In this document: piece by piece, positions 16,184 through 35,772 of the stretch
Layout: each line of letters begins with the position of its first letter
Position numbering within the stretch: the first letter of the stretch is position 1
Assembly (NCBI RefSeq): GCF_013371215.1
Contig: NZ_JABWMH010000003.1
Location: forward strand, 124,001 to 188,000
Length of the DNA: 64,000 bases
From: Parasphingorhabdus flavimaris
Lineage (GTDB): Bacteria; Pseudomonadota; Alphaproteobacteria; Sphingomonadales; Sphingomonadaceae
Direction: 5' to 3'
Notes under the pieces: model-generated
Databases searched by the model: none
What the model was told of the DNA's origin: nothing
The model's input: only the letters and a program-made list of their open reading frames with translations
Made by a program: the position numbers and the translations under genes

Positions 16184-16205
16184 AACTTGTATAACAATAC
16201 CCTCT
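16184..16205 (+). promoter_or_regulatory. Cluster-wide cis-element, copy A (thiolase operon)
   Basis: Contains ACTTGTATAACAATACC, then N2CT. It ends 15 bp before the thiolase ATG at 16221. TATAAC inside the element could serve as a -10, but no convincing -35 sits at the right spacing, which fits activator dependence. The same 22-position pattern occurs before four other units of the cluster. Confidence 0.65.
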
Positions 16206-16220
16206 AACGAGGAGAATGAC

Positions 16221-17450
16221 ATGGTTTATATCTTGGGTGGCTGCCAGACGGACTTTGCCCGGAATTGGGAACGTCAGGGCGAGGATATCGCCTCGGTCTT
16301 TGCTGACACGCTTCACAAGGGTCTCGCGCAAGCCGAGCTTGATGCAGAAGATATTGAAACAGGTCACGTCGGCAATTTTGTTGCGGAGCTGTTTGCCGGA
16401 CAGGGGCTGCTCGGCGGATTTTTCGGGCAGGCGCATCCGGCGCTTGATGGCCTTCCGACGGCGCGGCATGAAGCGGCCTGCGCGTCCGGCAGTGTCGCCA
16501 TCCTCGCTGCCATGTCGGAGATCGAAGCCGGTCGCTATGATCTGGCCTGTGTTCTCGGGCTCGAGCAGATGCGCAATGTTCCCGGGCGTGTCGCTGCCGG
16601 TCATCTGGGCGCTGCTGCGTGGCGCGGACAGGAATATCAGGATGCGGAATATGTCTGGCCGCGATCCTTTTCGGACCTGGCCGAGGAATATGACGAACGC
16701 TATGGTCTGAAATATGAGCATCTGATGCGGATATCCGAGATCAACTTCGGCAACGCCAAGCGCAATCCCAACGCCCAGACACGCGACTGGGCCTTCACCG
16801 ACAAAAGCTTCACCGCCGATGACGAAGCCAATCCGGTCATCGAAGGCCGCACCCGCAAGATGGATTGCGGGCAGGTTACCGATGGCGCTGCCGTCCTGTT
16901 TCTCGCTTCGGAAAAACGGGCCCGGCAATATGCCGACGAGCACGGCGTAACCCTGGAAAGCCTCCCGCGCATTTCTGGCTGGGGCCACCGTTCCGCACCG
17001 ATTTCCTACAAGCAGAAAATCCGCAACAGCGCCGACGGGCCGTATGTTTTTCCGCAGGTCAAACGGGCGGTGGACGACGCCCGCGCCCGCGCCGGGATAG
17101 ACGGCATCGACGCCATCGACATGGTCGAAACGCACGATTGTTTTGCGACCACCGAATATATGGCGATCGATCATCTCGGAATCACCGAAGCCGGCGAGTC
17201 ATGGAAGGCGATCGAGGACGGCAGCATCGAAATGGGCGGCCGGATTCCGGTCAACCCGTCCGGCGGCCTCATCGGTCTGGGCCATCCGGTTGGCGCGACC
17301 GGGGTGCGCATGGTTCTCGACGCCGCCAACCAGGTCACCGAAAAGGCCGGCGATTGTCAGGTCGAAGGTGCGCGTCGCGCGCAGACGCTGAATATCGGCG
17401 GCTCCACGACCACCACCGTCAGCTTTATCGTAGAGCGCGAAGCCGCATGA
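16221..17450 (+). CDS. Thiolase, SCP2-type acyl-CoA acetyltransferase-like (409 aa)
   Basis: Thiolase fold with the nucleophilic Cys at residue 87 (HEAACASGSVAI), ETHDCFATTE in the middle, and the GLGHPVGATG histidine motif. The C-terminal motif is LNIGGSTTTTVSF, the SCP2/non-classical type, instead of the CxGGGxG of ordinary thiolases. The expected role is thiolytic or retro-Claisen cleavage of a 3-oxoacyl-CoA from a ring or branched substrate; the exact substrate is unknown. GAGGAG 7 nt before ATG 16221 fixes the start. It leads an operon with an NTF2-fold protein (ATGA overlap), a CoA ligase and a DUF1295 protein, under cis-element A. Confidence 0.9.
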   Translation: MVYILGGCQTDFARNWERQGEDIASVFADTLHKGLAQAELDAEDIETGHVGNFVAELFAGQGLLGGFFGQAHPALDGLPTARHEAACASGSVAILAAMSEIEAGRYDLACVLGLEQMRNVPGRVAAGHLGAAAWRGQEYQDAEYVWPRSFSDLAEEYDERYGLKYEHLMRISEINFGNAKRNPNAQTRDWAFTDKSFTADDEANPVIEGRTRKMDCGQVTDGAAVLFLASEKRARQYADEHGVTLESLPRISGWGHRSAPISYKQKIRNSADGPYVFPQVKRAVDDARARAGIDGIDAIDMVETHDCFATTEYMAIDHLGITEAGESWKAIEDGSIEMGGRIPVNPSGGLIGLGHPVGATGVRMVLDAANQVTEKAGDCQVEGARRAQTLNIGGSTTTTVSFIVEREAA

Positions 17451-17965: not shown

Positions 17966-17976
17966 GCAAAAAAATC

Positions 17977-19773
17977 ATGACCGATTTCCGAACCGCGCCG
18001 TTTCGCGACGCCGAATTCATGCCCGTTGATTTGGATGTGGACCGGCAGGACGACGGCACCATAATCTTCAAATCAAACATCCCGATGCCTGAGCGCGAGA
18101 CCAATGTCGCGCGCGCCGTTTTCCAGAGTGTGGAAAATAATGCCGGCACAATCGCTCTCGCGCAGCGCGACGGGGAGGATGATTGGGAAGTCGTCAATTA
18201 TATCACGCTCGGCCAGCGGATCGCTTCGCTCGCCAACTGGCTGATCGAAAATGTGCCTGCGGGACGCGCCGTTCTGGTACTGGCGGAAAATTCGATAGAT
18301 TCGGCCATCGTCAAATTCGCATGCTATGCAGCCCGGGTCATCCATACGCCGGTGAGCCCGGCCTTTGCTCTGGCAACCGACTATGCGCGGCTGTCGCATG
18401 TCGCAAGGATGACCAATCCTGCATGTGTTTTCGCACCGGCGACGGCGCCATTTGTCAAAGCGGTAGAGACGGTCCTGGCGGATGACGTTGCGATATTGAC
18501 CGACAAGCCGGAGCTGTTTTCGCGGCCAGCCACGGCTGTTCACGATATTTACGACATTGCCGCAACCAACGCGGTGCAGGAATCGATCAACCGGATCGAT
18601 CCGGACGATGTCGCCAGCTATATGATGACATCGGGTTCCACCGGCCTGCCCAAAGTGGTCCAGCTCAGCATGACGGCCCTGGCCGCCAATACCGCCCAGA
18701 CAATTGCCGCGATCGGCAAGGCGGCAGGGTGGGATGATGTCATGCTGGACTGGTTGCCCTGGCACCACGCGGCCGGCGCCTCGGTGCTGCGCTCCTGCCT
18801 GGTCGAAGGCGGCACGCTCTATATCGATGCGGGGAAACCCGCGCCGGGACTGTTCGACACATCGATCCGCAATTTGCGCGAAATCTCCGTCTGCTATTTC
18901 AACAATGTGCCATCGGGTTACGCGATGCTGGTCGCGGCGATGGAAGACGATCCCGAGCTACGCGCGAGCTTCTTCAGGAAAATGCGGCTAATGCTCTATG
19001 GCGGAGCGGGTCTGCCGCAAAATGTCTACGACCGGCTACAGGAAATGGCGGTCGCGGAGACCGGTCACCGGATTCATATGACCACCGGCTATGGCATGAC
19101 CGAGACCGTCTCCGGTTGCCTGACTATCCATTTCCCGACTCAGACAGTGGGTATCGGCCTGCCGTGCCCCGACGTGACGGTAAAGCTGGTGCCGACAGAT
19201 GGCCGCTATGAAGTCCGTTTGCACGGCCGCAATCTGATGAATGGCTATCTCAACGAGCCGGAGAAAAATGCAGCGGTTTTTGACGAGCAGGGCTTTTACA
19301 AGACCGGCGATCTGGCGCGACTGATCAACCCCGACAATCTCGAGGAAGGTCTCGCCTTTGCCGGTCGTCTGGCGGAAGAATTCAAATTGTCCAACGGCAC
19401 GTGGGTCTATGGCGGGGAATTGCGTGACAGCTTGCTGAAGGCGCTTTCTCCCGACATCATGGATCTGGTCCTGTGCGACGCCAACCGGCCCTATCTGACG
19501 ATGATGGCCTGGCCCGGCCCCAAGGCAGATGCCGACGCCGGACCGCGGATTGCCGAAAAACTGAAGGCCTTCAACGCCAATCGCAGCGGCAAGTCGGCGA
19601 CCATCCAGCGCTTTGCCCTGCTCGCGACAGCGCCTGATCCCTCGGCCCAGGAAGTGTCCGACAAGGGCAGTATCAACCGGCGCGCAGTGATCGAAAACCG
19701 CGGAGACATTGTCGAGCAGCTCTACGCCGACACACCGCCCGCATCGATATTTTGCGTCGACCCGAGCAAATAA
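17977..19773 (+). CDS. Acyl-CoA synthetase, feruloyl-CoA-synthase-like (598 aa)
   Basis: A class I adenylate-forming enzyme. It has the P-loop MMTSGSTGLPKVVQ near residue 214, DWLPWHHAAGASVL, GGTLYIDAGKPAPG, the TGYGMTETVSG adenine motif and YKTGDLARL. The DWLPW...GGTLYIDxGKP pattern is typical of feruloyl-CoA synthase-like ligases of proteobacteria. It activates a carboxylic acid to its CoA thioester with ATP, and an aromatic or cyclic acid is likely. It starts 11 bp after the NTF2-fold gene and lies in the same operon. A second, different ligase is encoded at 23839, so two acids, or two stages of one pathway, may be activated. Confidence 0.88.
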   Translation: MTDFRTAPFRDAEFMPVDLDVDRQDDGTIIFKSNIPMPERETNVARAVFQSVENNAGTIALAQRDGEDDWEVVNYITLGQRIASLANWLIENVPAGRAVLVLAENSIDSAIVKFACYAARVIHTPVSPAFALATDYARLSHVARMTNPACVFAPATAPFVKAVETVLADDVAILTDKPELFSRPATAVHDIYDIAATNAVQESINRIDPDDVASYMMTSGSTGLPKVVQLSMTALAANTAQTIAAIGKAAGWDDVMLDWLPWHHAAGASVLRSCLVEGGTLYIDAGKPAPGLFDTSIRNLREISVCYFNNVPSGYAMLVAAMEDDPELRASFFRKMRLMLYGGAGLPQNVYDRLQEMAVAETGHRIHMTTGYGMTETVSGCLTIHFPTQTVGIGLPCPDVTVKLVPTDGRYEVRLHGRNLMNGYLNEPEKNAAVFDEQGFYKTGDLARLINPDNLEEGLAFAGRLAEEFKLSNGTWVYGGELRDSLLKALSPDIMDLVLCDANRPYLTMMAWPGPKADADAGPRIAEKLKAFNANRSGKSATIQRFALLATAPDPSAQEVSDKGSINRRAVIENRGDIVEQLYADTPPASIFCVDPSK

Positions 19774-19782
19774 GGAATCATC

Positions 19783-20577
19783 ATGAATCTGGTTACTATG
19801 TTGGCGATGAACGCCGCAATCCTGCTTACGCTGTTTTTTGTCCTGTGGCTGGTTTTCCAGAAAACCCGCGACGTCACGCCGATAGACAGCGTCTGGGCAC
19901 TGGGAATGGTGGCGCTGGCGATCAGCAGCTTCTTTCTTGGGAGCGCGTCGGACGATCGCAAATATCTGTTGCTCGGCCTGTGCGCTGTCTGGGGCATCCG
20001 GCTCGGCGGCTATATGTTGTGGCGCTGGCGCGATCATGGGCCGGACCGTCGCTACGAAGCCATGGTCGGCAAGGCCAAGGCGAACAAGGGCTGGGGCTTT
20101 GGCCACGCAACCGCTCGGCTCGTCATCGCCCCGCAGGCACCAATGCTGTTCATCGTCTGCCTGCCGGTCCAGCTCGGGCAAGCCGGACCACCAGTCGCGC
20201 TCGGTATGCTCGCCATGGTCGGCGCTGCGCTCGCCGTCATCGGGATTATTTTCGAAACGGTCAGCGACTGGCAGCTGACGAAATTCAAGAAGAACCCGGA
20301 CAATGCCGGAAAGGTCATGCAATATGGTCTGTGGCGCTACACCCGCCACCCCAATTATTTCGGCGACGCCTGTGTCTGGTGGGGCTTGTTCCTGATCGCA
20401 GCCGAAACGCCTGCCGGAATATGGTCCTTCTTCGGCCCCGCTCTGCTGACCTGGACGTTGATAAAATGGTCCGGCGCGCCGACGGTAGAAAACCGGCTGC
20501 ACAAGACAAGAGAAGGTTATGCCGATTATGTGCGGCGTACGTCCGGCTTCGTGCCGATGCCGCCCAAAAGCAGCTGA
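19783..20577 (+). CDS. DUF1295 (steroid 5-alpha-reductase-like) membrane protein (264 aa)
   Basis: An integral membrane protein with about six helices. The C-terminal signature YGLWRYTRHPNYFGDACVWW is characteristic of DUF1295 and the wider steroid 5-alpha-reductase/ICMT-like fold. Family members include NAD(P)H-dependent C=C reductases and methyltransferases; many bacterial ones are uncharacterised. AAGGAA upstream supports ATG 19783, 9 bp after the CoA ligase stop. As last gene of this operon it probably reduces or modifies a hydrophobic intermediate in the membrane. Only 3 bp separate its stop from the stop of the convergent flavoprotein gene. Confidence 0.87.
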   Translation: MNLVTMLAMNAAILLTLFFVLWLVFQKTRDVTPIDSVWALGMVALAISSFFLGSASDDRKYLLLGLCAVWGIRLGGYMLWRWRDHGPDRRYEAMVGKAKANKGWGFGHATARLVIAPQAPMLFIVCLPVQLGQAGPPVALGMLAMVGAALAVIGIIFETVSDWQLTKFKKNPDNAGKVMQYGLWRYTRHPNYFGDACVWWGLFLIAAETPAGIWSFFGPALLTWTLIKWSGAPTVENRLHKTREGYADYVRRTSGFVPMPPKSS

Positions 20578-20580: not shown

Positions 20581-21510
20581 CTATCCCCCGATAGCGGCCA
20601 GCCGCGCTTTGGCGGCGCGAAATTCGGCGTCCAGCTGATCGCCTATTGCCGCGACGGGTTCCCGGCCCTTGACGGCCTGGATACCCTGTCCCGCGGCCCA
20701 CAGGTCCTTCCAGCGGGTACCGACATCGTCGCCACCATAGTTGCGGGTAGCGGGCTTGGTCAGGTCATCCAGATCATAGCCATTGGCAAGCAGGGACGGA
20801 ATGAGCCAGGACGCCGGTGTGCCGGTCACGCCGGCGCTGACGATCAGATCGGTGGCGTCGCTGCTGACCACCATGTCCTTGTAGTCATCAGCCGCCATGC
20901 TCTCTTCTGCGGCGAGAAAGCGCGTGCCCATATAGACCAGGTCGGCTCCGGCCGCGACCGCGCCGGCGACGCCCGCTCCGTCGGATATTCCGCCGCCCAC
21001 GCAGACAATGCCATCGAAAAATTCCCGGATCGCGGAGACAAAGGCAAAGGGTGACAATTGCCCTGTATGGCCCCCGGCGCCGGACGATACCGCCACCAGG
21101 CCATCCGCGCCTGCGGCGGCGGCTTTCCTTCCCAGAGCGATCGTCACGATATCTGCCAGGACGATCCCGCCATAGTCATGTACCACCGAAATGGCGGGTG
21201 CCGGACTGCCCAGGGCGGTGATCACGATCGGCGGCTTGTGCTTGGCCACCAGCGCAAGGTCATCTGCCAGGCGGTCATTGGTGCTATGGGTAACGAGGTT
21301 CGCCGCCCACAGGCCGTCACTGTCCCTCGTCTCCGCCACGATCTGCGTCATCCACTCGTCGAGCTGCTGCGCAGTGCGGCAATTGGGTGTGGGGAAGGCC
21401 CCGACCAGTCCGGATCGCGCTGCGGAGATGACCATTTCCGGGCCTGATACCAGAAACATCGGAGCGACAACCACCGGCAGACGCAGACGGGAAAGCAAGG
21501 GGTTCGTCAT
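20581..21510 (-). CDS. Nitronate monooxygenase / NPD-family flavoprotein (309 aa)
   Basis: An FMN TIM-barrel of the 2-nitropropane-dioxygenase family. Visible are VVAPMFLVSGPEM at the N-terminus, the catalytic-His segment SSGAGGHTGQLSPF, the phosphate-binding GGGISDGAGVAGAVAAGADLVYMGTRF, and a C-terminal WAAGQGIQAV. Although annotated as nitronate monooxygenases, relatives in steroid and terpenoid catabolic clusters (for example IpdC) act on CoA thioesters. The start (21510) overlaps the thiolase stop by ATGA, so the two are translationally coupled and a CoA-thioester substrate is more likely than a nitroalkane. Confidence 0.88.
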   Translation of the reverse strand: MTNPLLSRLRLPVVVAPMFLVSGPEMVISAARSGLVGAFPTPNCRTAQQLDEWMTQIVAETRDSDGLWAANLVTHSTNDRLADDLALVAKHKPPIVITALGSPAPAISVVHDYGGIVLADIVTIALGRKAAAAGADGLVAVSSGAGGHTGQLSPFAFVSAIREFFDGIVCVGGGISDGAGVAGAVAAGADLVYMGTRFLAAEESMAADDYKDMVVSSDATDLIVSAGVTGTPASWLIPSLLANGYDLDDLTKPATRNYGGDDVGTRWKDLWAAGQGIQAVKGREPVAAIGDQLDAEFRAAKARLAAIGG

Positions 21511-22661
21511 GACAGTCTCTCCACAATGATCGCTGCGCCAACACCTTGTGCGCCGGAGGCTACAACCAGTCCATATTTGCCATCTGCTGCATCCAGGGCG
21601 TCGAGCAAAGTGGATAATAATATCGCGCCAGTCGCGCCCATCGGGTGGCCCTTGGCAATATGGCCACCGCTGACGTTCACCCTGTCCATGTCCGGTTGAT
21701 AGTTGCGGCGGAACAAGGCGTAAGGGACGGCGAAAGCCTCCATGAATTCGATCCGGTCGATCTGGTCGAGGGACAGTCCGGCTTGCGCCAGCACTTTGTC
21801 CATGGCGGCAAACCCAGCGGTCAAAGATTGCCGTGCATCAGCCCCTGTTTCTGCAAATGCAACGACCCGGGCACGCGGGGAGAGAAATGACTTTGCGCCG
21901 CCGATAGCGGCGAGACCCGCCCCATCCGTCATCGGCGGAGCGTTGGCGACCGACATCCGGGGATCCAGCGTCTGGCCGCTTAGCGCATGTGCATATTGTT
22001 CCGCCAATCCGCCAAAAGCCGGTGGCATGGCAGCCAGTTTTTCCGGGCTAGTCACCCGGACGGCTTCATCATGGTCGAGATTGCCGATCGTGATGCGGGA
22101 GGCCAGCAAGGCCGCGTCATTTTCCGCATTGGCCGCGCGCGACTGCGACAGATAGCTCAGGCTATCCATTTCCTCGCGGGTAACATCCTGTTCCATCGCC
22201 AGCAAATCTGCCGCAAGCGCGACCGGAATATAGCGATCCGCCGGTTCAAAGCTCTGGTCGCTGTAATAGTCCGCCCGATCCGCCATGAAGGGCACTTGCG
22301 ACAGCATTTCCACGCCGCCCGCCAATGCGAGCTCGCTCTGGCCGGCTGACACCGCGGCAACCGCCTGGCCGATAGCGGTGAGACCGGATGCGCAGAAATT
22401 GTTGATCGTATGGGCGCTGCTCGTTTCGGGCAGTCTGGACGCTATTTTCGTGGTGAGCGCGATATGGCCGCCCTGCGCGCCGACCTGGCCGACACAGCCC
22501 AGCGTGAGCCGGTCGACATCGGACCGCTCGATTGCTCCGCGTTGTTCGACCGCATCGATCAGCGCACCGACCAGACCATAAGGCGTCTGCTCCGCAAGGC
22601 CGCCGTCCGGTCGCGCTTTGCCGCGTACCGAGCGGACACAGTCGCCGATGAATATATCCAT
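21507..22661 (-). CDS. Thiolase-family protein lacking the second catalytic cysteine (384 aa)
   Basis: An acetyl-CoA acyltransferase-like thiolase with the acylated Cys at residue 90 (NNFCASGLTAIGQA) and the His motif GGHIAKGHPMGATGAI. The last motif, normally CxGGGxG with the base cysteine, reads VVASGAQGVGAA, so the usual C-terminal Cys is not visible. That suggests an altered reaction (a non-thiolytic condensation or a synthase-like role) or another base. ATG 22661 begins 2 bp after the stop of the upstream reductase-like gene; the open frame further upstream is antisense-quality. It is the middle gene of a three-gene operon with tight spacing. Confidence 0.88.
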   Translation of the reverse strand: MDIFIGDCVRSVRGKARPDGGLAEQTPYGLVGALIDAVEQRGAIERSDVDRLTLGCVGQVGAQGGHIALTTKIASRLPETSSAHTINNFCASGLTAIGQAVAAVSAGQSELALAGGVEMLSQVPFMADRADYYSDQSFEPADRYIPVALAADLLAMEQDVTREEMDSLSYLSQSRAANAENDAALLASRITIGNLDHDEAVRVTSPEKLAAMPPAFGGLAEQYAHALSGQTLDPRMSVANAPPMTDGAGLAAIGGAKSFLSPRARVVAFAETGADARQSLTAGFAAMDKVLAQAGLSLDQIDRIEFMEAFAVPYALFRRNYQPDMDRVNVSGGHIAKGHPMGATGAILLSTLLDALDAADGKYGLVVASGAQGVGAAIIVERLS

Positions 22662-22663
22662 GA

Positions 22664-23728
22664 TCAAACTTTCTGTCGTTGCAGGGAAATCGAAGGCGGC
22701 TGGAACGCGAACAGACCGGCCGGCGCAGCGATGACTTCGGGAATGGCATTGATGGCAACCGCGCAGACTGCATCTGTAAGCGCGCGCGACGGGGGCTTCG
22801 AAGGATCGGATTCGGAAATATCGAGCGTCATCCTGATGTCTGGGCGGCCCTTGATATTCATGATCCAGTGTCCTTGTCGCTCGCTGTCGTGCAGACTGGG
22901 ATCCGCCGTCCAGATGATCGACAACAACAGGTCCGTGCCGTTTTCGAGACGTGCGGTCCAGCGCCACTCGGTGGCGGCAACCGTGCCCTTGGCAATGGTC
23001 CCGGCCGCAACCTCGATATCGTGCGGCGCGATCGTCAGTTGATGGTCCGGCTCGATTGCCGATATTCTGCTGCCCAGATGATTGGCGCAGAAATACAGGA
23101 CTTCGGAAAATAATACGCCATAGAGCCCGCTGAGCGGACCCTGGCGGATATCCTTCTCCGCGGGATCGGAACCCAGGCCCATCAGGCCGAAGACAAATTC
23201 CGGGCTTGTCATTGCCGACGCGTCGACCGTTTCAAAAATCTCGACCCTGTCCATATCCACCGACATGGCGCTGGCGGTCATCACCAGCCGCTCCGCCACC
23301 ATGCCGGGGTTTACCCCTACGCCCGCGAGCGTTGCATTGCCTTTGATCGCGGCAGCGCGGAGCGGGCCAGCATAGCTTTCGCCATGCGCGTCCGGCCAGT
23401 GGAAGCCTGCGGTGGAAATAACATTCTTGCCGGATTCCAGCAGGCGGATGACATCGGGAACCAGCGCTTCATAAGGCAAAGTGATCCGCGGCATGTGGAT
23501 CACGACATCTGCATTGCTATCGATAATCGCGTCTACATCGTCGGTGGCAAGGACACCGGTGGGCGCGCGCCTTGCAATATCGCCGACGTCGAGACCCCGT
23601 TTTCTGGCAGAGTAAACCAACGCTCCGACCAGTTCCATGTCAGGATGATCCATCACCATTCGCATTGCCGTGCGGCCCATCGATCCGCTCGCCCACTGGA
23701 TGACCTGGATCGCTTTGCCTGTTTTCAT
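22664..23728 (-). CDS. Dihydrodipicolinate-reductase-like NAD(P)-dependent oxidoreductase (354 aa)
   Basis: A Rossmann N-terminus (IQVIQWASGSMGRTAMRMV), followed by DVVIHMPRIT and the GVGVNPGMVAERL segment, marks the DapB-like/diaminopentanoate-dehydrogenase-like family found in actinobacterial and sphingomonad catabolic clusters. It is not the lysine-pathway enzyme; dapB is at 40.8-41.5 kb. It probably catalyses an NAD(P)-linked oxidation or reduction of a pathway intermediate. It is the first gene of the reductase - thiolase - flavoprotein operon. Cis-element D lies 31 bp upstream of its start, and the region is shared with the divergent CoA ligase. Confidence 0.85.
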   Translation of the reverse strand: MKTGKAIQVIQWASGSMGRTAMRMVMDHPDMELVGALVYSARKRGLDVGDIARRAPTGVLATDDVDAIIDSNADVVIHMPRITLPYEALVPDVIRLLESGKNVISTAGFHWPDAHGESYAGPLRAAAIKGNATLAGVGVNPGMVAERLVMTASAMSVDMDRVEIFETVDASAMTSPEFVFGLMGLGSDPAEKDIRQGPLSGLYGVLFSEVLYFCANHLGSRISAIEPDHQLTIAPHDIEVAAGTIAKGTVAATEWRWTARLENGTDLLLSIIWTADPSLHDSERQGHWIMNIKGRPDIRMTLDISESDPSKPPSRALTDAVCAVAINAIPEVIAAPAGLFAFQPPSISLQRQKV

Positions 23729-23759
23729 CTATTCTGTTCCCGGAAATGTTGCACTTATC

Positions 23760-23781
23760 TGTTGGTATCTTTATGCAAGCT
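23760..23781 (-). promoter_or_regulatory. Cluster-wide cis-element, copy D (reductase operon)
   Basis: On the minus strand the core reads GCTTGCATAAAGATACC, then N2CA. It ends 31 bp before the reductase-like start at 23728 and also lies 58 bp upstream of the divergent CoA ligase start at 23839, so it may control both. Confidence 0.6.
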
Positions 23782-23838
23782 AATACGGTCACCGTCAATT
23801 GGACAGTGAAACCAATTTTGAGATGGGAGAAGGTCGCG

Positions 23839-27045: not shown

Positions 27046-27150
27046 TCCCGTTTATCACATTTACATTTTCGGCGTCTCTCGCGCCCTGATTGCGCAACAG
27101 CGATTCGTCTGACTATTTCCTTGACTCGATCATTCGAATATCGCAGGCCT

Positions 27151-27172
27151 CACTTTTATAACAATACCTACT
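27151..27172 (+). promoter_or_regulatory. Cluster-wide cis-element, copy B (NTF2-MFS operon)
   Basis: Core ACTTTTATAACAATACC, then N2CT, almost identical to copy A. It ends 10 bp before ATG 27183, so it overlaps the probable -10 (TATAAC) and start site. It lies in the 137-bp spacer that also separates the divergent oxygenase gene, and could control that gene too. Confidence 0.65.
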
Positions 27173-27182: not shown

Positions 27183-27725
27183 ATGAAGTTTCGCAAGATA
27201 TTTTTGCCCGTTTTGATGGGATTGTCACCTCTTGCCGTGTCGCCGGCCAGCGCTGCAGACACGGCGCCAGAAGGCGCCACCTCCGAAGATTCCCACCATG
27301 ATATGAACAAGGATCAGGCCGCCATGCAACAGGACCCCAAAATCGCCGTCGTCCAGGAAATGATTACCGCATGGAACGAAAAGCAATGGAGCAAGGTCGG
27401 CGATCTGTTCACCGAAGATGGCGTGCTTCACTCGATGATGCTTGATCCGATCGTCGGCCGCGAGCCGATCCGCGAGCGGATCATCGGCCTTGGAGAAGGC
27501 ATTGAGGAAATCACTCTGCATATCCACAATATCGGTCGCATCGGCGATGTGGTCGTGATCGAGCGGACCGACGAGTTCATCTATAAAGGCCACAAGGGCA
27601 AGGTGCCGGTCGTTGGCATTCTGGAAGTCGAAGGCGACAAGGTCAGCGTTTGGCGGGAATATTATGATCGCGCCGAGCTGATCGAGGCATTGGGCCTGAC
27701 TGCCGATTTTGATCCGTCAGCGTGA
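27183..27725 (+). CDS. Secreted limonene-1,2-epoxide-hydrolase-like NTF2-fold protein (180 aa)
   Basis: It has a signal peptide (MKFRKIFLPVLMGLSPLA, cleavage after PASAA), a His-rich linker and an NTF2/LEH domain (residues 53-170). The catalytic Arg-x-Asp and Asp of limonene epoxide hydrolase are matched by R128, D130 and D162 (VIERTDEF...VWREYYDRAEL), with nearly the same spacing. The Tyr and Asn that position the water are not conserved (LHSMML). It should act in the periplasm, perhaps on an epoxide or on a carbonyl by acid-base chemistry. GGAGG 5 nt before ATG 27183 is ideal. A GTGA overlap couples it to the following MFS gene. Confidence 0.88.
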   Translation: MKFRKIFLPVLMGLSPLAVSPASAADTAPEGATSEDSHHDMNKDQAAMQQDPKIAVVQEMITAWNEKQWSKVGDLFTEDGVLHSMMLDPIVGREPIRERIIGLGEGIEEITLHIHNIGRIGDVVVIERTDEFIYKGHKGKVPVVGILEVEGDKVSVWREYYDRAELIEALGLTADFDPSA

Positions 27726-29089
27726 GTGAAACAGAGCAGCTCGCTCCTACTGCAGCGATAGAAGCGAGTGCCGCCGGGATAGGTGAGGGTGAACCTCCCT
27801 ATCCCGGCGCGGCTCTGTCCTGGGGCATCGTGGCGATGCTTTTCATCGCCTATATTTTCTCGTTCATAGACCGGATGCTGATCGGTCTTCTGGTCGAACC
27901 GATCAAGAAAGACCTGCTGCTGACGGACACCCAGATCAGCCTCTTGCAGGGACTCGCCTTCGCGCTTTTCTATACGATCGCAGGCATCCCGATTGGCCGC
28001 TGGATTGACCGCGCACCGAGAATGCGGGTCGTCGCTATTGGCATTACCATATGGAGCGGGATGACCGCCCTGTGCGCCACCGTCACAAATTTCTCCCAAT
28101 TTTTCCTCGCCCGCATGGGCGTCGGTGTGGGCGAGGCCGTGCTGTCACCGGCCGCCTATTCTATAATCTCGGACAGCTTCCCGAAGAGCCGGCTCGGCCT
28201 CGCCATGGGTGTCTACGGTCTGGGCTCCGCAATCGGGGCCGGCATGGCGTTCATGATCGGCGCAGTGGTCATCGCCGCCGTCGCCAACGCGGAGACGGTT
28301 ACGGTTCCGTTGCTCGGCGTCATCAAGGGGTGGCAAGTCGCATTTCTTGTCGCTGGCCTGCCCGGCCTGCTTATCGCCCTCGCTTTCGTGCTGCTGCCAG
28401 AGCCGGTGCGACGGATCACCAAGGGGGAAGAGCATCTCACCGGCCAGGTGCCGATGTCCGCCGTTACCCGTCACCTGAAAGACAATAAGGTCTATTTCTG
28501 GAGCATTTTTCTTGCGGTCGGCATGGTCAATCTCTCCGTTCTCGGGTCCATTTCATGGCTGCCGGTCATGATGGTCCGTTCGTTCGGCATGGAATTGGCG
28601 AATGCAGGCTGGCTTTCGGGATCGCTGTTGATTGTTGGCGGCCTGCTCGGGATGGTCGGCGGCGGCGCGCTTATGGACAGGCTTGGCGGCGGCTCACCCG
28701 AATCGCGGCTGAAATTCTGTGCGTGGGCAACGGTGGTCGGAATATTCGGGGCGGTGGCATTCCCGCTGCTCGAAAACACCATTCTCATGTCGGTCGCGTT
28801 CGTGATATTCTTTACCGCAGCGGCAGTAGCTGTCGGCGCTGCGCCATCGGTTATCCAGCAGCTCGCCCCGAACCGGATGCGGGCGACTATTTCTGCAGCC
28901 TATGTGTTCGTGATCAACATCATCGGACTGGGTGCAGGACCGACATTGACGGCGGTGATCGGCGACAATTTCTTCCCGTTCGAGTCGGGTATCCGTTACG
29001 CGATCGCGATTGTTGCCCCCTTTGGCTATGTCGTCGGTGCGATATTATTCTTTGTCGCGGCAAACAGCGTGCGCTCCCACAAAATCTAG
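27722..29089 (+). CDS. MFS transporter, spinster-type (455 aa)
   Basis: Twelve predicted membrane helices with the MFS loop motif GIPIGRWIDRAPRMRV between helices 2 and 3 and FSFIDRMLIGLLVEPIKKDL at helix 1. The pattern is that of spinster-like MFS carriers, widespread in sphingomonad aromatic and steroid catabolic clusters. The start codon is GTG at 27722, overlapping the stop of the periplasmic LEH-like gene, so the two are translationally coupled. It probably carries the substrate, or the product released by the periplasmic enzyme, across the inner membrane. The direction is not certain. Confidence 0.9.
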   Translation: MSETEQLAPTAAIEASAAGIGEGEPPYPGAALSWGIVAMLFIAYIFSFIDRMLIGLLVEPIKKDLLLTDTQISLLQGLAFALFYTIAGIPIGRWIDRAPRMRVVAIGITIWSGMTALCATVTNFSQFFLARMGVGVGEAVLSPAAYSIISDSFPKSRLGLAMGVYGLGSAIGAGMAFMIGAVVIAAVANAETVTVPLLGVIKGWQVAFLVAGLPGLLIALAFVLLPEPVRRITKGEEHLTGQVPMSAVTRHLKDNKVYFWSIFLAVGMVNLSVLGSISWLPVMMVRSFGMELANAGWLSGSLLIVGGLLGMVGGGALMDRLGGGSPESRLKFCAWATVVGIFGAVAFPLLENTILMSVAFVIFFTAAAVAVGAAPSVIQQLAPNRMRATISAAYVFVINIIGLGAGPTLTAVIGDNFFPFESGIRYAIAIVAPFGYVVGAILFFVAANSVRSHKI

Positions 29090-29177: not shown

Positions 29178-30149
29178 ATGGAAAAGAAACTCATTCGGTC
29201 CTGTTCAATATGGCGCGCGCTCGAGGTGGTTGGCGACGTACCTATTCTTCTGATTTTGGAAGCCAGTTGGCTGGGCGGCAAAAGATTTGACGAATTTCGC
29301 CGCCGCACAGGATTGTTGAAAGCCCTGCTTTCCGATCGCCTGGGGCGACTCGTGACGGGCGGTTTGATGGAAAAGAAGCTCTATTGCGATAGTCCGCCGC
29401 GCTACGAATATCTGATGACCACGAAAGGTCAGGACCTCTACTGGACCGCGCTGATGCTCCTCCGCTGGGAAAAAAAATGGCAGGTCAAGGACAAGATCAA
29501 TGTGGAATTGATCCACAAGACCTGCGGCAAAATGTTCGACCCGGTTCCGGCCTGCGGGCATTGCAGCGAAGAGATTGATCCGACCCGGGTCGCGTGGAGC
29601 GAAGGCCCGGGGCTGGGCTGGATGAAACCGCTATACAGCCGTCGCCGGAAAACCCGGGAGAGTACGGGCGATACGACATCGCTCATGGATCAGGCGGCGC
29701 AGATCATGGGCGACCGTTGGGGCAGCCTGATCATGCGATCCATCTATACCGGGGTGAACCGATTTGATGATATCCGCGCCGACACCGCGATCGCAACCAA
29801 CATATTGTCGGAGCGTCTGACGTGGCTCACCGATATGGGGATGATCAGACAGAGCCAGTATAACAGCAATCCTCCGCGCTACGAATATCGGCTGCGCCGC
29901 AAGGGTGTGGATTATTATCACGCGCTGCTCATGCTGATGCAATGGGGGGACAAATATTTCGTCGCGCCCGAAGGGCCTCCGCTGCTTTTGACCCACGAGG
30001 AATGTGGCCACGATCTGGATCCGCAAGTCGTCTGTTCGGAATGCAAGGAACATATCTCTTTCCAGGACGTCAGCTACCGGATTATCGACCGCCGTCCAAT
30101 GTCGGAGAATGATTCAGAGCCTGTCCCGGTGTCGCGGACGGCTTCCTGA
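29178..30149 (+). CDS. Tandem HxlR-type winged-helix regulator with two Cys-rich knuckles (323 aa)
   Basis: Two HxlR domains lie in one chain: residues about 5-100 (RSCSIWRALEVVGDVPILLIL...PPRYEYLMTTKG) and 165-265 (AAQIMGDRWGSLIMRSI...PPRYEYRLRRKG). Each is followed by a possible metal knuckle: TCGKMFDPVPACGHC near 113 and ECGHDLDPQVVCSEC near 273. Ordinary HxlR proteins are about 110-130 aa dimers, so this is a covalent pseudo-dimer. It is the only regulator inside the catabolic cluster and is a good candidate to bind the shared asymmetric cis-element. The promoter indicates a leaderless mRNA starting at ATG 29178. The ligand is unknown. Confidence 0.9.
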   Translation: MEKKLIRSCSIWRALEVVGDVPILLILEASWLGGKRFDEFRRRTGLLKALLSDRLGRLVTGGLMEKKLYCDSPPRYEYLMTTKGQDLYWTALMLLRWEKKWQVKDKINVELIHKTCGKMFDPVPACGHCSEEIDPTRVAWSEGPGLGWMKPLYSRRRKTRESTGDTTSLMDQAAQIMGDRWGSLIMRSIYTGVNRFDDIRADTAIATNILSERLTWLTDMGMIRQSQYNSNPPRYEYRLRRKGVDYYHALLMLMQWGDKYFVAPEGPPLLLTHEECGHDLDPQVVCSECKEHISFQDVSYRIIDRRPMSENDSEPVPVSRTAS

Positions 30150-30172: not shown

Positions 30173-30194
30173 AACTTTCATTACCATACCTTCT
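30173..30194 (+). promoter_or_regulatory. Cluster-wide cis-element, copy C (SDR-NTF2 operon)
   Basis: Core ACTTTCATTACCATACC, then N2CT. It ends 32 bp before ATG 30227 in the 77-bp gap after the HxlR gene. It matches copies A and B at ACTT, AT, AC and ATACC. Confidence 0.6.
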
Positions 30195-30226: not shown

Positions 30227-31111
30227 ATGACGAAACAGCGAACTGCCTTGGTAACAGGTGCCGGAAAAGGTCTGGGCGCGGCATTCGCCCGCGGGCTGGC
30301 TGCGGATGGCAGCGCGGTGATGGTCAACAATCGCAGCCATGATGGCCAGCCAAGCTCGGCCAAACAGATAGCCGACAGCCTGACCGCAAGGGGTTTCACG
30401 GCGAGCCATGACAACCATGCCGTCGACGGCAATGGCGCAGCCGATGCAATCATCGGTCATGCGGTCGAGACATGGGGCGGACTGGATATATTGGTCCTCA
30501 ATGCCGGGATCACCGGGCCTGCGGCGAAAGTCGGAGCGCTGACCGATGCCGATATCAGAGCCGTGATGGAGATAAATTTCCACGCCAATACCGCGCTGGT
30601 CGACGCCGCCTTGCCTCATCTGATCGCCTCGCCTGCCGGTCGCATTGTGTTCATCGCATCTTCCGCGGGACTCTATGGCGTGCGAGGGCGTGCTTCCTAT
30701 GCCGCATCCAAGGGGGCGTTGATCGCTTATGCGCGGACGCTCGCCGACGAGCTGGCCCGGACTTCTGTGCGGGTGAACATATTGGCGCCTTATGCCGCAA
30801 CCAATATGACCGCCGGCCAGGGCGAGGAGCTGAATGACGTGCTCCATCCTGACAAGGCGGCAGCCGCCGCCGTCTGGCTCAGCCGGCCGGAATGCCAGCG
30901 GACCGGCGAAATCTGGATAGCGGGCGGCGACTATTTCTGCCGTGCCGCAGCCACCGAGAGCACCGGTGGTGGCGCTCCCGATGCCACAGCGGACTGGTTC
31001 GGCGAAAATGTCGAGCAACTGTCAGCAATAGGAAATGGCCGGGAACATTCCGGCGCAGAGGCGGCGTTCGGCGATTTTTTCGATCGCCTGAAAAATATTT
31101 CAACAGAATGA
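30227..31111 (+). CDS. Short-chain dehydrogenase/reductase (294 aa)
   Basis: A Rossmann SDR with the cofactor motif VTGAGKGLGAAFARG, LNAGITGPA, a catalytic Ser in IASSAGLYG and YAASKGAL (Tyr-x3-Lys). The first motif and its continuation (VMVNNR) resemble the 3-hydroxyacyl-CoA dehydrogenase part of MFE-2/17-beta-HSD4 proteins. A C-terminal tail of about 60 residues beyond the SDR core is of unknown role. It should oxidise a secondary alcohol or 3-hydroxyacyl-CoA. GGAGAGGG upstream supports ATG 30227. It is the first of four tightly packed genes (SDR, NTF2, SDR, NTF2). Confidence 0.9.
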   Translation: MTKQRTALVTGAGKGLGAAFARGLAADGSAVMVNNRSHDGQPSSAKQIADSLTARGFTASHDNHAVDGNGAADAIIGHAVETWGGLDILVLNAGITGPAAKVGALTDADIRAVMEINFHANTALVDAALPHLIASPAGRIVFIASSAGLYGVRGRASYAASKGALIAYARTLADELARTSVRVNILAPYAATNMTAGQGEELNDVLHPDKAAAAAVWLSRPECQRTGEIWIAGGDYFCRAAATESTGGGAPDATADWFGENVEQLSAIGNGREHSGAEAAFGDFFDRLKNISTE

Positions 31112-31126
31112 AGGAGAGACAAGAGA

Positions 31127-31693
31127 ATGGCACGACCAAAATCCGTAGAAGAATTGTTCGACCGCGAGGAAATATATGACATATTGATCAACTATGCGCG
31201 TGGAGCCGACCGGGCCGATATAGACCTGATTGCCGCGGCCTATCACGACGACGCTATAGAAGATCACGGCGGGACATTTCACGGACCGGCGAGCGAATAT
31301 GTGGCGTTGATCAGCAAGGTTCTGCCAACTGCGCCGCGGATGTCCCATATTGTCACCAATATCAATATCGAGCTGGACGGCGAGAAAGCCTACACAGAAT
31401 GCTATTTTCTGACCTTTTCGCGCCGCGACCAGATCGACGACCCTTTTGACAGCCTGACCATGGCCCGGGTGATCGACCGGTTCGAACGGCGCGACGGCGC
31501 ATGGAAAATTGCCCATCGCCGCCTGGCATGGGACTGGAACCACGAAATGCCGCTGCTCGAAAGCTGGGGGCGTGGCGGGATCGCCCCCGACCCGTCCAAG
31601 CTGACCAGAGGGGCCAAGAAACCCGACGATATTTTATACGGCGACTGGCTCCGCGGAGACGGCCCGGCAACCCAAAAAGGAGAAATTGAATGA
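31127..31693 (+). CDS. SnoaL-like / NTF2-fold protein (188 aa)
   Basis: A SnoaL_4-type protein (DILINYARGADRADIDLIAAAYHDDAI, MSHIVTNINIEL, WKIAHRRLAWDWNHEMP). It has no signal peptide and no cofactor motif. The fold houses small-molecule isomerases, dehydratases and lyases and the beta subunits of ring-hydroxylating dioxygenases; no alpha subunit is present, so a free-standing enzyme is likely. It is clearly paralogous to the product of 32439-32960, sharing the DWNH-x-MP segment. GGAGAG precedes ATG 31127. The stop overlaps the next SDR start by ATGA. Confidence 0.88.
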   Translation: MARPKSVEELFDREEIYDILINYARGADRADIDLIAAAYHDDAIEDHGGTFHGPASEYVALISKVLPTAPRMSHIVTNINIELDGEKAYTECYFLTFSRRDQIDDPFDSLTMARVIDRFERRDGAWKIAHRRLAWDWNHEMPLLESWGRGGIAPDPSKLTRGAKKPDDILYGDWLRGDGPATQKGEIE

Positions 31694-32439
31694 AGATTGA
31701 AGGATGTACGGCGCTGGTTACCGGCGGCAATCGCGGTATTGGCAAAGGCTTTGTCGAAGAGCTGCTCGATGCCGGAGCGAAGCGGGTCTATATTGCGGCT
31801 CGCAAATTGGCCGATGCCGAAGAATTGGCGCAGACGGCGCCGGACCGGCTGGTTGCGATCGAGCTCGACGTAACCAACGCCGATCAGATTGCAAAAGCCG
31901 CCGAGCAATGCACCGACCTCGATTTGCTGGTCAACAATGCTGGCGCCTTCAACAATGTCACCCTGATGGGGGCGGACGACATGACCGCGATGCGGCAGGA
32001 GATCGAGACCAATTATATTGGCGTTGTCGCCATGTGCCGGGCCTTTGCACCGATATTGAAAGCCAATGGCGGCGGCGCGATCGTCAACGTCTTGTCCGCC
32101 GGTGCGATTATCGCGGTTCCCAATATGGGCGGATATAGTCCGTCGAAATTTGCTTCGCGCGCGGCCTCGGACTGCATTCGTGCCGAACTGGAGCCGCAGG
32201 GCACGCAGGTTTCAGCGCTGATCGTCGGTTCGGTCGACACGCGCATGGCATCGCATGTAACCTGGCAGGAGAAAAGCTCGCCCCGGACGATCGGCAAGGC
32301 CGGCATTCTGGCCGTGGAACATGGCATCGACGAGCATGATACCGATCCGCATTCGGTGTCGGTTCGGGCTTTTCTGGCCCGTGATCCCCATACCATCAAG
32401 CGCTCGATGACCGATGCCCTGCACAAAGGACGCAGCTAA
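31690..32439 (+). CDS. Short-chain dehydrogenase/reductase (249 aa)
   Basis: A classical-length SDR: VTGGNRGIGKGFVEEL cofactor loop, LLVNNAGAFNNV, a catalytic Ser in VLSAGAIIA and YSPSKFASRA with the catalytic Tyr and Lys. It is not a close copy of the SDR at 30227. It starts by ATGA overlap with the preceding NTF2-fold gene, with AAGGAG inside that gene, and shares one base with the following one (TAATG). Coupling to NTF2-fold partners on both sides suggests consecutive steps on one intermediate, for example alcohol oxidation followed by a cofactor-free elimination or lyase step. Confidence 0.9.
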   Translation: MKIEGCTALVTGGNRGIGKGFVEELLDAGAKRVYIAARKLADAEELAQTAPDRLVAIELDVTNADQIAKAAEQCTDLDLLVNNAGAFNNVTLMGADDMTAMRQEIETNYIGVVAMCRAFAPILKANGGGAIVNVLSAGAIIAVPNMGGYSPSKFASRAASDCIRAELEPQGTQVSALIVGSVDTRMASHVTWQEKSSPRTIGKAGILAVEHGIDEHDTDPHSVSVRAFLARDPHTIKRSMTDALHKGRS

Positions 32440-32960
32440 TGTATAAAAACACGATCGAGACGGTTATCGCCAAACAGGATATCCACGATACAATCATGCG
32501 CTATGCCCGCGCCATAGATCGCGCAGACGGTCCGTTGTTGCACAGCTGCTACTGGGATGACGCGATCGAGGAGCATGGCAGCAGTTACACCGGACCTGCC
32601 CATGACTATATCGACGGCGCGATGGAGCGCCTGATGAAAGGCGATGTCATGATGCATCTGGCCGGTAACATTCATGTCGAGCTGGAAGGCGATACCGCCT
32701 GGGTCGAGACTTATCTGCTGACCTTCGCCCGCTTCAAGAAGGACGGAGAAGACTGGGACACGCTGACCGGCGGCCGTGTTTTCGACAAATTTACCTGTCG
32801 GGACGGCGAATGGCGCATCGCCCACCGCAAGATGGCGTTCGACTGGAACCACGACATGCCGTCTTCCGAGAGCTGGTGCGTGGGACTGTTCAACCCCGAG
32901 GATCCCCGCATGATCATGGGACGCAAGGGGAAGGATGACCTGACCTACAGCCGGTTCTGA
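32439..32960 (+). CDS. SnoaL-like / NTF2-fold protein, paralog of the 31.1-kb gene (173 aa)
   Basis: A SnoaL_4-type domain (DTIMRYARAIDRADGPLLHS, YWDDAIEEHGSSYTGPAHDY, MHLAGNIHVELEGD, WRIAHRKMAFDWNHDMP). It aligns along its length with the 188-aa protein two genes upstream, so the SDR-NTF2 pair looks like a duplicated module whose members have diverged. It is cytoplasmic with no cofactor motif. A strong bidirectional terminator lies 25 bp after the stop, ending the operon. In Novosphingobium the NTF2-fold enzyme LdpA is a cofactor-free diarylpropane deformylase, a possible functional parallel. Confidence 0.88.
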   Translation: MYKNTIETVIAKQDIHDTIMRYARAIDRADGPLLHSCYWDDAIEEHGSSYTGPAHDYIDGAMERLMKGDVMMHLAGNIHVELEGDTAWVETYLLTFARFKKDGEDWDTLTGGRVFDKFTCRDGEWRIAHRKMAFDWNHDMPSSESWCVGLFNPEDPRMIMGRKGKDDLTYSRF

Positions 32961-32985
32961 CGGCAGATCATTTCAGGCAAAAAAG

Positions 32986-33017
32986 AAGCCCGCGGACGAG
33001 ATGTCCGCGGGCTTTTT
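32986..33017. terminator. Bidirectional intrinsic terminator
   Basis: A 12-bp perfect stem AAGCCCGCGGAC / GTCCGCGGGCTT with a 5-nt loop, a T-run on the right for the plus strand and an A-run on the left that gives a U-run for the minus strand. It separates the convergent NTF2-fold gene (stop 32960) and TonB receptor (stop 33041). Confidence 0.95.
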
Positions 33018-33040
33018 CATGTATCAGAGAAGCGTCCGGT

Positions 33041-35389
33041 CTAGAATTTGAGAGCGACTTCCGCACCATAGGTCCGTGGCGCGCCCAGACGTGATATTTC
33101 ATCACCGAAGAATGCAATCACGTTCGCGCGATAGACTTTGTTGGTCAGGTTGCGGCCCCAGATCGAGAAGGACAGGTCGCGCGTCGGGCTGAGGGTCAAC
33201 CGTCCGCCCAGCGTTCCGTAACCAGGCTCATTGGCCAGGGCATCGGGGCTCCAGCTCATCTTGCCTTGATGGCTATAGCTCAGATTGGCCGCAAAACCGT
33301 CGGACCATGAACCAAGATCGGTCACGTAGTTCGCGCTGACGTTGAACTGATAATCCGGGGTCCGTTGCAGGAACTTGCCGTCGTTCACATTGCCGACCGA
33401 GTCGGTGAACTCGAGATATTTGGTGTCGAGCAAGGTCAGTGCGCCGTTCAGGTTGAAGCCGGGGAACAGGACAACTTGCGCTTCCGCTTCGATACCCAGG
33501 ATCTTCGCATCGGCGGCATTATCCGTGATGTTGCACAGACAGATCTGCGACGTCTGTGTGACCTGCAGATTCTTGTAGCGCATCGAGAATGCAGCGACAT
33601 TCAACCGAGCACGACGGTCGAACAGATCGAATTTCGCGCCGACTTCGTAGCTGTTGACCTTTTCCGGATCATAGCTGCTCTGCGCTGCCAGAGCATTGGC
33701 CGGATCGTCCTCGAACCCGCCGCCCTTGTAGCCCGTCGAATAGGTCGCATAGAGCATTATGTCGGGGTTGGGCTTGAACTCTGCAGTAACCTGCGGCGTA
33801 AATTGAGACCAGTGGTTGGAGTAGGCGGTCGTGTAACCGCCACCCTCGACATAATTGGCCGCAAGCGGAGCGGACGGAACCGGATCATTGGGTGTGAATT
33901 TGTCGCCCGTTTCCAGCGCCAGACCGGTGACGGTTCCGCTCTTCTTGTCGCGTGACCAGCGCAGGCCGCCGACGATCCGGAACTGCTCGCTGAAGCGATA
34001 GCCCAGTTGTCCGAAGATCGCATAAGAGGTGTTTTCCCCGTCATTGTCCCAAAGCGACTGGCCGTTCAGCGTCGGGATCGCGGGGGTTGCGATTTCGAAA
34101 GCGATAATATCGTCTTTCTTGACTTTATCGTGCTGGAAATATCCGCCGACGATCCAGTCGAACCCGCGGTCATAGGCCTGTTCGGAGACCATCCGGATTT
34201 CCTGCGTGAACTGCTTGATATTCTCTCTCTCACGTACCGGAGACCGGAACAGAAGAGGCAGGACGATCCCGTAATTGTTGCTGGGGCCGATGCCGGTCTG
34301 GTCATATTGGCTGAACGCCTTGCCGCTGCGATAGCCGGTAATGCTGGTAAGCGTACCAAGGCCTTCAAACTCGTTCGACAGGTTAAGCGTCAGTCCCCAG
34401 GCCTCGCGGTCGAGTTGTTGCGGGGTGGGATTCACGTCGCCCTTGTAGGTCTGCCAGTCGGGCAGGCTTTCCCGGATGGAAAGGCCTTCTGGCCGCAAGG
34501 CAGCGACCTGCGCACGCGCCGTGCTCCATGGACCGGCGCCGGCGTCGGGACCATCCAGGGCCACCGAGTGGAAACCGTTCGAACTGTCCTTGGTAAAGTC
34601 GGCGATCAGCAGCGCGCTGAAATCGGAATTTGACGGCAGATATTGCAACTGTCCGCGCATCTGTACGCTGTCGACATTGTCGAGGTCGATGTCATGGGCG
34701 ATATCGCGGGCAAAGCCGTCACGATTGCGCACCTGGAACGCGAACCGTCCGTTGACGCTATCGCTGATCGGCCCGGTGAAATGTCCTTTCACCAGCTTTT
34801 CGTTATAATTTCCGTAGGATGCGTTGAGGCTTCCTCCGTAGGTCGATTCCGGACGCGCGCTGTAGATGCTGATCGCACCGCCGGCGACATTGCGGCCCAG
34901 AAGCACGCCCTGGGGTCCGCGAACGACTTCGACACGGCCGATATCATAGAGATCGAAATTGAACAGGCCGGAGCGGCCGACATAGACGTCGTCGGTGAAT
35001 ATCCCGATCGACTGATCGGCCGTCGGGGAATCAAGCCGCGTGTTGGTGATACCGCGGATGTTGAATTCCTGATCGAGGGGAGACAGTGCGGTGAACGACA
35101 GGGAGGTCGCTTCGCCAGCAAGATCCTCGAAGCTGAGGACGCGGGCTGTTTCGAGGCTATCCGCTGAAAAAGCGGAAATTGCCGCGGATGTGTCCTGCAC
35201 ATTTGTGTCGCGGCGCTGTGCCGTCACGACGATGACATCGAGTTGCATATTAGAACCTGCTTCCGCGGAAGCTTCGTTCTGCGTCTCGGCCTGCGCGGGC
35301 ACCACAGCGGTCTGTGCGAGCGCCGCCGCAGGGAAGGCAAGGCAACTGATTGCTAAAGAAAGGTGACTCGATGTCTTGAACAAACTCAT
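33041..35389 (-). CDS. TonB-dependent outer-membrane receptor (782 aa)
   Basis: It has a signal peptide from MSLFKTSSHLSLAIS to PAAALAQT, a TonB-box-like DVIVVTAQRRDTNVQD, a plug with VEVVRGPQGVLLGRNVAGGA, and a barrel ending YGAEVALKF. This is the class linked to uptake of hydrophobic or xenobiotic compounds in sphingomonads. ATG 35389 has GGGAGA upstream and places the signal peptide at residue 1; the ATG at 35443 gives an unlikely extension. The promoter region carries cis-element E, tying it to the catabolic cluster, so it is the best candidate for the outer-membrane importer of the pathway substrate. Confidence 0.94.
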   Translation of the reverse strand: MSLFKTSSHLSLAISCLAFPAAALAQTAVVPAQAETQNEASAEAGSNMQLDVIVVTAQRRDTNVQDTSAAISAFSADSLETARVLSFEDLAGEATSLSFTALSPLDQEFNIRGITNTRLDSPTADQSIGIFTDDVYVGRSGLFNFDLYDIGRVEVVRGPQGVLLGRNVAGGAISIYSARPESTYGGSLNASYGNYNEKLVKGHFTGPISDSVNGRFAFQVRNRDGFARDIAHDIDLDNVDSVQMRGQLQYLPSNSDFSALLIADFTKDSSNGFHSVALDGPDAGAGPWSTARAQVAALRPEGLSIRESLPDWQTYKGDVNPTPQQLDREAWGLTLNLSNEFEGLGTLTSITGYRSGKAFSQYDQTGIGPSNNYGIVLPLLFRSPVRERENIKQFTQEIRMVSEQAYDRGFDWIVGGYFQHDKVKKDDIIAFEIATPAIPTLNGQSLWDNDGENTSYAIFGQLGYRFSEQFRIVGGLRWSRDKKSGTVTGLALETGDKFTPNDPVPSAPLAANYVEGGGYTTAYSNHWSQFTPQVTAEFKPNPDIMLYATYSTGYKGGGFEDDPANALAAQSSYDPEKVNSYEVGAKFDLFDRRARLNVAAFSMRYKNLQVTQTSQICLCNITDNAADAKILGIEAEAQVVLFPGFNLNGALTLLDTKYLEFTDSVGNVNDGKFLQRTPDYQFNVSANYVTDLGSWSDGFAANLSYSHQGKMSWSPDALANEPGYGTLGGRLTLSPTRDLSFSIWGRNLTNKVYRANVIAFFGDEISRLGAPRTYGAEVALKF

Positions 35390-35772
35390 ATATTTTCTCC
35401 CATCATATCCGGTCATTGAAGCAGCCGGTCTATCTTCGCACATCCGTAAACCATCGTAGTGGGTTCGTCAATGCAAGTTAGTCGAATGTGTTGAAGAGTG
35501 CGACCTCATGCTCAAGGCAGCCGTCCCGGCGAGACGATGCCTCCCTCTCACTTACGGGGATTATCATCCGGATTAAGGTTCGATGCCGATTTAGATGATC
35601 GCATTCCGGGAAATCTTGCCGTTGCAGTCGCCACGCAACAATCCCTGCCCGCCAATAGGCCAACAGAGGCAGCTATCGGGCAGCCGTCCTGAGGGGGATA
35701 TTATCGGTTTCCGATCACTCCGGAGATGCTCCGGGGTTCCGTGTCGCTCTAACCCAATAAATGGCAGAAAAA
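35390..35772. other. Intergenic region between TonB receptor and tRNA-Arg
   Basis: About 380 bp. Apart from cis-element E, and the receptor promoter that should lie near it, I see no gene, RNA or strong repeat. Short open frames on both strands lack ribosome-binding sites and recognisable products. Confidence 0.5.
35458..35479 (-). promoter_or_regulatory. Cluster-wide cis-element, copy E (TonB receptor), most degenerate
   Basis: On the minus strand the element begins ACTTGCATTGACGAACC, then N2CT. It keeps ACTT, AT, ACC and CT of the consensus but deviates in the centre. It lies 68 bp before the receptor start codon, further than the other copies. Confidence 0.5.

Follow-up and report, generated by a model that had tools for sequence, protein, structure and literature searches.

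The described proteins closest to the regulator considered here are the HxlR or MarR-DUF24 repressors YodB, CatR and QsrR of Firmicutes, with which it has the DNA-binding domain PF01638 in common. Proteins of the YodB, CatR and QsrR type are dimers that bind inverted repeats. An asymmetric site bound by one chain with two helix-turn-helix modules is known from AraC/XylS-type regulators such as MarA; these form an unrelated family of mostly activators, whereas the two modules described below are duplicated HxlR domains.

The regulator, which we call the tandem HxlR, is encoded in a catabolic cluster of the window (the whole 64,000-nucleotide stretch of Parasphingorhabdus flavimaris DNA that was analysed). 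It matches PF01638 in two stretches with 105.8 bits against a cut-off of 20.8 (Pfam). The usual architecture, not demanded by Pfam, is one HxlR domain per chain, and two in a 323-aa chain depart from it. YodB, CatR and QsrR are single-domain proteins connected with quinone detoxification genes, whereas the tandem HxlR has two diverged domains per chain, lies in a catabolic cluster and goes with a non-palindromic candidate site. Judged by length, its relatives in the PDB, a YodB chain among them, are single-domain HxlR chains. Its Cys9 near the N-terminus recalls the redox cysteines Cys6/Cys7 near the N-terminus of YodB/CatR (PMC6798810). A further difference from YodB, CatR and QsrR is an HxxCG...CxxC motif after each domain, H-x2-C-G-x8-C-x2-C at residues 113–129 and 273–289 (29514–29564 and 29994–30044), which is possibly a metal knuckle. 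An AlphaFold model built from four sequences reached a pLDDT of 44, too poor to indicate the oligomeric state. Among the matches listed from the open-access literature, no title dealt with a tandem HxlR or with the element described here, which is weak evidence of absence.

The features of the cluster are given below in window coordinates, with genes grouped into predicted transcription units.

16185–16201, + strand: site A, core ACTTGTATAACAATACC, before the thiolase gene (ATG 16221)
16221–17450, + strand: thiolase, first gene of the site A unit (NCBIfam NF004936, above cut-off)
17977–19773, + strand: acyl-CoA ligase (AMP-binding)
19783–20577, + strand: DUF1295 / steroid reductase-like protein
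20581–21510, − strand: nitronate monooxygenase-like flavoprotein, downstream in the site D unit
21507–22967, − strand: second thiolase, site D unit; the ORF overlaps the DapB-like gene and its start is not fixed
22664–23728, − strand: DapB / 2,4-diaminopentanoate dehydrogenase-like protein, first gene of the site D unit
23764–23780, − strand: site D, core GCTTGCATAAAGATACC, in the divergent gap between the DapB-like gene (23728, −) and a CoA ligase gene (probable start 23839, +)
23839–25530, + strand: acyl-CoA ligase, divergent from site D
25585–27045, − strand: carotenoid cleavage dioxygenase-like protein (CCD)
27152–27168, + strand: site B, core ACTTTTATAACAATACC, abutting the Shine-Dalgarno sequence of the SnoaL2-MFS-HxlR unit (ATG 27183)
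27183–29089, + strand: SnoaL-like protein and MFS transporter, site B unit
29178–30149, + strand: tandem HxlR regulator, 323 aa, two HxlR domains, downstream of site B; presumed reader of the sites
29307–29342, + strand: presumed recognition helix of the N-terminal HxlR domain, TGLLKALLSDRL
29784–29819, + strand: presumed recognition helix of the C-terminal HxlR domain, TAIATNILSERL
30174–30190, + strand: site C, core ACTTTCATTACCATACC, before the SDR-SnoaL unit (ATG 30227)
30227–32960, + strand: SDR, SnoaL_4, SDR and SnoaL_4, site C unit
33041–35389, − strand: TonB-dependent receptor, site E unit
35462–35478, − strand: site E, core ACTTGCATTGACGAACC, before the TonB receptor gene (ATG 35389)

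The nearest PDB chain of the CCD-like protein is a carotenoid 9,10-dioxygenase, and the protein scores below every NCBIfam cut-off. The ORF of the divergent CoA ligase opens at 23746. Matches in relatives often begin near residue 28–32, and a Shine-Dalgarno sequence, GGGAGAAGG, points to 23839, which is probably the true start. With that start, site D lies in a divergent gap of 110 bp (23729–23838) and may serve both the DapB-like and the CoA ligase unit.

A sequence-only reading had aligned five 22-mers by eye: 16184–16205 (+), 27151–27172 (+), 30173–30194 (+), 23760–23781 (−) and 35458–35479 (−). All are found at these positions and strands, and all contain the letters described as shared, namely ACTT (GCTT in 23760–23781), AT, ACC and a C at position 21. 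The gaps between 22-mer and start codon are 15 bp for A, 10 bp for B, 32 bp for C, 31 bp for D and 68 bp for E, in agreement with the 10–68 bp given there. In the alignment with relatives the ACTT, AT and ACC columns stand while position 21 is unconserved, and the conserved core is 17 bp long, comprising positions 2–18 of the 22-mer with the pattern RCTT(G/T)CATWA-nnn-WACC. The consensus from 57 sites (46 distinct) is R C T T K C A T W A n n A W A C C, in which columns 3, 15 and 16 are invariant and columns 2 and 4 are kept at 96–98%; two matches labelled x (G056 21605 and G146 25606) had been dropped before the logo and the 57-site set were made. The element had been called non-palindromic, and indeed only two of the eight dyad pairs (3/15 and 8/10) show strong complementarity and the dyad score, equalled in 9.8% of permutations, is not significant. 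The 17-bp element thus lacks the inverted repeat of a palindromic HxlR operator. The five window sites have one common orientation relative to their genes.

An alignment made by eye could be due to chance, and the degenerate pattern as written, RCTTNNATNNNNNNACCNNC, would allow this, as it has 15 matches in the 3.35-Mb genome and its reversed control has 15 as well. Five of the 15 are the window sites, and the only four ACTT versions of the pattern in the whole genome are sites A, B, C and E. The near-identity of A and B is by itself little proof, since the exact 12-mer common to them, TATAACAATACC, occurs three times in the genome; around the third copy (L106) no site above 9 bits was found in 20 kb. 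A genome scan had been proposed as the test that could overturn the shared element, and with the refined pattern it returned seven matches in the window's genome, five of them in the cluster. A further pattern, RGTTNNNNNNNNNWACY, was too loose to be informative. With a matrix from 44 sites (the five window sites included), the five are the best matches of the 64-kb window at 22.7–27.2 bits, site C being the highest, and the next reaches 17.3 bits. The same matrix found no site before the CCD gene of the window. A site-like match of 17.3 bits lies over the CCD start codon on the opposite strand (27032–27048).

We searched 199 genomes of the family with the tandem HxlR. In 18 genomes, G000 included, the match (E up to 1e-78) spans at least some 290 residues, and regions of 38–40 kb around the gene were compared for ten relatives. 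Most of the cluster is kept in the same order in G072, G095, G001, G134 and G146, each of which lacks one or two genes. In G056 the cluster is rearranged and the sites are still present, and four relatives (G198, G153, G054 and G132) have a mini-cluster of CCD, thiolase and HxlR. We then added seven further tandem-HxlR genomes and three contigs (a Sphingomonadales MAG, a Sphingorhabdus MAG and Algimonas arctica), all of which have sites at cluster genes as well, even A. arctica, which belongs to the order Maricaulales.

A matrix made from the five window sites only was run over 574,076 bases that surround tandem-HxlR genes in 20 genomes or contigs other than the window's; from the 20 stretches of the second set, the seven holding a tandem HxlR were taken. 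A match was counted as in place when it lay at most 200 bp before a cluster gene and on its strand, with an overlap of 15 bp allowed, a territory that makes up 3.4% of the sequence. By this automatic rule 37 of the top 50 matches are in place, whereas 60 column-shuffled matrices put 3.2 in place on average and never more than 8. Nine of the remaining 13 are in place by eye and were missed because tblastn did not reach the N-terminus of those genes. The other four are unexplained (G134 16212, G056 21605, G146 25606 and Algimonas 16397), two of which, G146 25606 and Algimonas 16397, are opposite-strand sites in TonB upstream regions. The matches are not independent, as the genomes are related. 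Among the top 60, the automatic rule finds an in-place site for 16 of the 20 genomes or contigs; in G042 and G047 one is in place by eye, and G054 and G173 have weaker sites. All 18 genomes with a near-full-length tandem HxlR have a site before a cluster gene, the weakest being those of G173 (13.6 bits) and G054.

The sites found with the window matrix stand before orthologous thiolase, DapB-like, SnoaL, SDR, CCD and TonB genes. Counterparts of site A occur in G001, G095, G134, G146, G056 and G072, those of site B in G056, G072, G134, G146 and Algimonas (weak in G095), and those of site C, before the SDR orthologue, in G001, G095, G134, G146, G072, L061, L062 and L063. Four full-cluster relatives (G001, G095, G134 and G146) also have a site before the CCD gene. 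The same site is therefore found before orthologous units of other genomes. This strong conservation at orthologous clusters, where the sequence-only reading had advised looking, supports its proposal of a regulon spanning the cluster of about 19 kb.

Some sites come in pairs. Direct repeats 18 bp apart with one weaker copy (L097:12041–12075 and L101:6522–6556) stand in G074 and G047 between the divergent TonB and NMO genes. At L063:16397–16447 and upstream of TonB in G095 and G001, a second, opposite-facing site near the TonB site gives an inverted pair.

As the above regions had been selected by the presence of the tandem HxlR, we used a scan of all 199 family genomes with RCTTKYATWNNNNWACC as a test free of this selection. 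It gave 105 matches (our own sum of the table). Seven full-cluster genomes account for 27, of which 25 lie inside the cluster, and the other 192 genomes for 78; the reversed control has 4 matches in the seven. Two matches of G153 on another contig, in or next to TonB-like tblastn matches and on the opposite strand, were set aside. The density of sites thus follows the presence of the regulator. A distant, 19th tandem HxlR with 33% identity (L122, G159:C310; a 346-aa frame with two HxlR-like stretches) is encoded in G159, whose genome has no match to the RCTTKYATWNNNNWACC pattern, and this protein may have another site. Given the held-out relatives and the family-wide scan we rejected chance alignment, the probability of which we consider negligible. 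We conclude that the element is real, conserved and regulatory.

Two regulator genes are present among the compared window genes (12.9–35.4 kb): a TetR gene (15234–15989) and the tandem HxlR gene. The element could be read by this TetR, whose gene adjoins the thiolase unit, or by an unlinked regulator, binding by the tandem HxlR being itself a prediction. At E up to 1e-15, nothing in the ten relatives' regions matches the TetR, and on this ground we rejected it as the reader. The tandem HxlR was found in all ten, which is by design, since they had been picked by it. Since the TetR is unmatched there and sites occur in 18 tandem-HxlR genomes, the tandem HxlR is the best candidate, as the sequence-only reading had surmised. 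The concentration of motif matches in full-cluster genomes and the retention of CCD, thiolase, HxlR and site in the mini-clusters also argue against a different reader, which we regard as improbable.

In several places a predicted promoter box coincides in part with the site. The −35-type sequence TTGAC is seen at site position 8 in seven TonB sites, and site E contains a −35-like TTGACG at positions 8–13. TTGAC lies at −29/−30 in five SnoaL2 sites (window, G072, G134, G146 and Algimonas). Four CCD sites have it at −25, together with a −10-like box at −3. The promoter score is 7.7 as compared with 6.6 in shuffles, a modest excess. Because of this overlap we consider repression the likeliest mode of action. 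The occurrence of one element in the same orientation and near the start codon of five units could also suggest the promoter element of an alternative sigma factor. However, the 17 bp are not accompanied by a second strongly conserved box at a fixed distance, ordinary −35/−10-like boxes lie at differing offsets, and the genome has only two further pattern matches. As the alignment lacks such a box we rejected a fixed-distance promoter element, and we consider a sigma factor element very improbable.

Another reading is activation by the tandem HxlR. The HxlR protein of Bacillus subtilis is an activator, and an asymmetric site would allow an orientation-specific contact with RNA polymerase. The uniform orientation of the five window sites is not required of a repressor and speaks against repression; by eye, the sites of relatives mostly have this orientation too, while the automatic in-place rule is no test of it, because it demands that orientation. 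On the other hand, site B and its orthologues before SnoaL2 end 13–17 bp upstream of the ATG and abut the Shine-Dalgarno sequence, so that a promoter could not fit in downstream of these sites, and with respect to the predicted promoter boxes the sites are found anywhere between −35 and about +1. A repressor accounts better than an activator for an overlap that shifts in this way, and activation therefore seems unlikely to us.

The reading as operator of a repressor can be set beside single-domain HxlR genes of the family, near which palindromes are frequent. A symmetric palindrome made from the left half of the element, ACTTNCATNATGNAAGT, is present in a single genome of the 199, where it lies 62 bp upstream of the tblastn match of a single-domain HxlR gene; it is the place and not the count that is telling, as its reversed control is found in two genomes. 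Near-palindromes of 17 bp were found upstream of 10 of the first 22 HxlR genes (shuffled mean 2.0, maximum 5) and of 23 of 82 (mean 6.8, maximum 12), the 82 being 81 single-domain genes and one tandem gene (L122), a subset of a longer match list and not all HxlR genes of the family. Near-palindromes of 16, 18, 20 and 22 bp occur at 29, 29, 27 and 25 of the 82; a length of 17 bp is not special, although the first 22 genes had pointed the other way. The other 59 genes have no such 17-bp site, the tandem gene L122 among them. At 17 bp, ACTT, GCTT or ACTA ends are seen at L078, L081, L082, L083, L085, L087 and also L090, and GGTT ends at L077, L086, L126, L138, L150, L160 and L162. An identical perfect palindrome, ACTATGATAATCATAGT, lies upstream of the single-domain genes L082, L087 and L090 in three genomes.

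The upstream sites of L081, L085, L077 and L086 have the same 17-bp register with ends of one type or the other, and are near-symmetric, whereas the window site combines both end types. It looks like half of an ACTT-type and half of a GGTT-type palindrome, which would suit a fused two-domain protein. The recognition helices, which we take to lie where the HxlR fold would place them, are unlike each other in the two domains and each is conserved among close relatives; in mini-cluster proteins they are more variable, and the C-domain helix of G153 (AAPAILSDRL) departs. Single-domain genes with GGTT-type sites encode helices resembling that of the C-domain. A counter-example is L081, with a C-domain-like helix (ISTNIL) and an ACTT-type palindrome, which leaves the assignment of helices to halves unsettled. 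Whether the fused domains have diverged towards a hybrid operator unreadable by single-domain paralogues of the same cell is a proposition for which we see the case as evenly balanced.

Taken together, we consider it likely from the sequence comparisons that the element serves as operator for the tandem HxlR, which would act as a single-chain dimer on an asymmetric site and repress the cluster. Two winged-helix HxlR domains in one polypeptide would form a built-in dimer, and on a 17-bp site with unlike halves one domain would read (A/G)CTT(G/T)CAT and the other GGT(A/T) on the opposite strand. Bound at a unit, the protein would mask its −35, its −10 or its start region and so keep uptake genes (TonB, MFS), genes of oxidative cleavage (carotenoid-dioxygenase type) and those of CoA-dependent breakdown repressed, until a substrate or intermediate of the pathway releases it. 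As site B precedes the SnoaL2-MFS-HxlR unit, the tandem HxlR probably controls its own synthesis too.

The analysis puts forward a DNA site, and with it a regulon, for the two-domain HxlR subfamily that accompanies alphaproteobacterial degradation clusters of the carotenoid-dioxygenase type. Such a regulon would join the transporter, receptor and enzyme genes of one pathway in a single regulated unit, and the subfamily is a natural test case for the way in which a symmetric repressor could acquire an asymmetric operator through gene fusion. If the hybrid operator is indeed unreadable by the HxlR paralogues, duplication and fusion would have insulated a whole degradation regulon from them.
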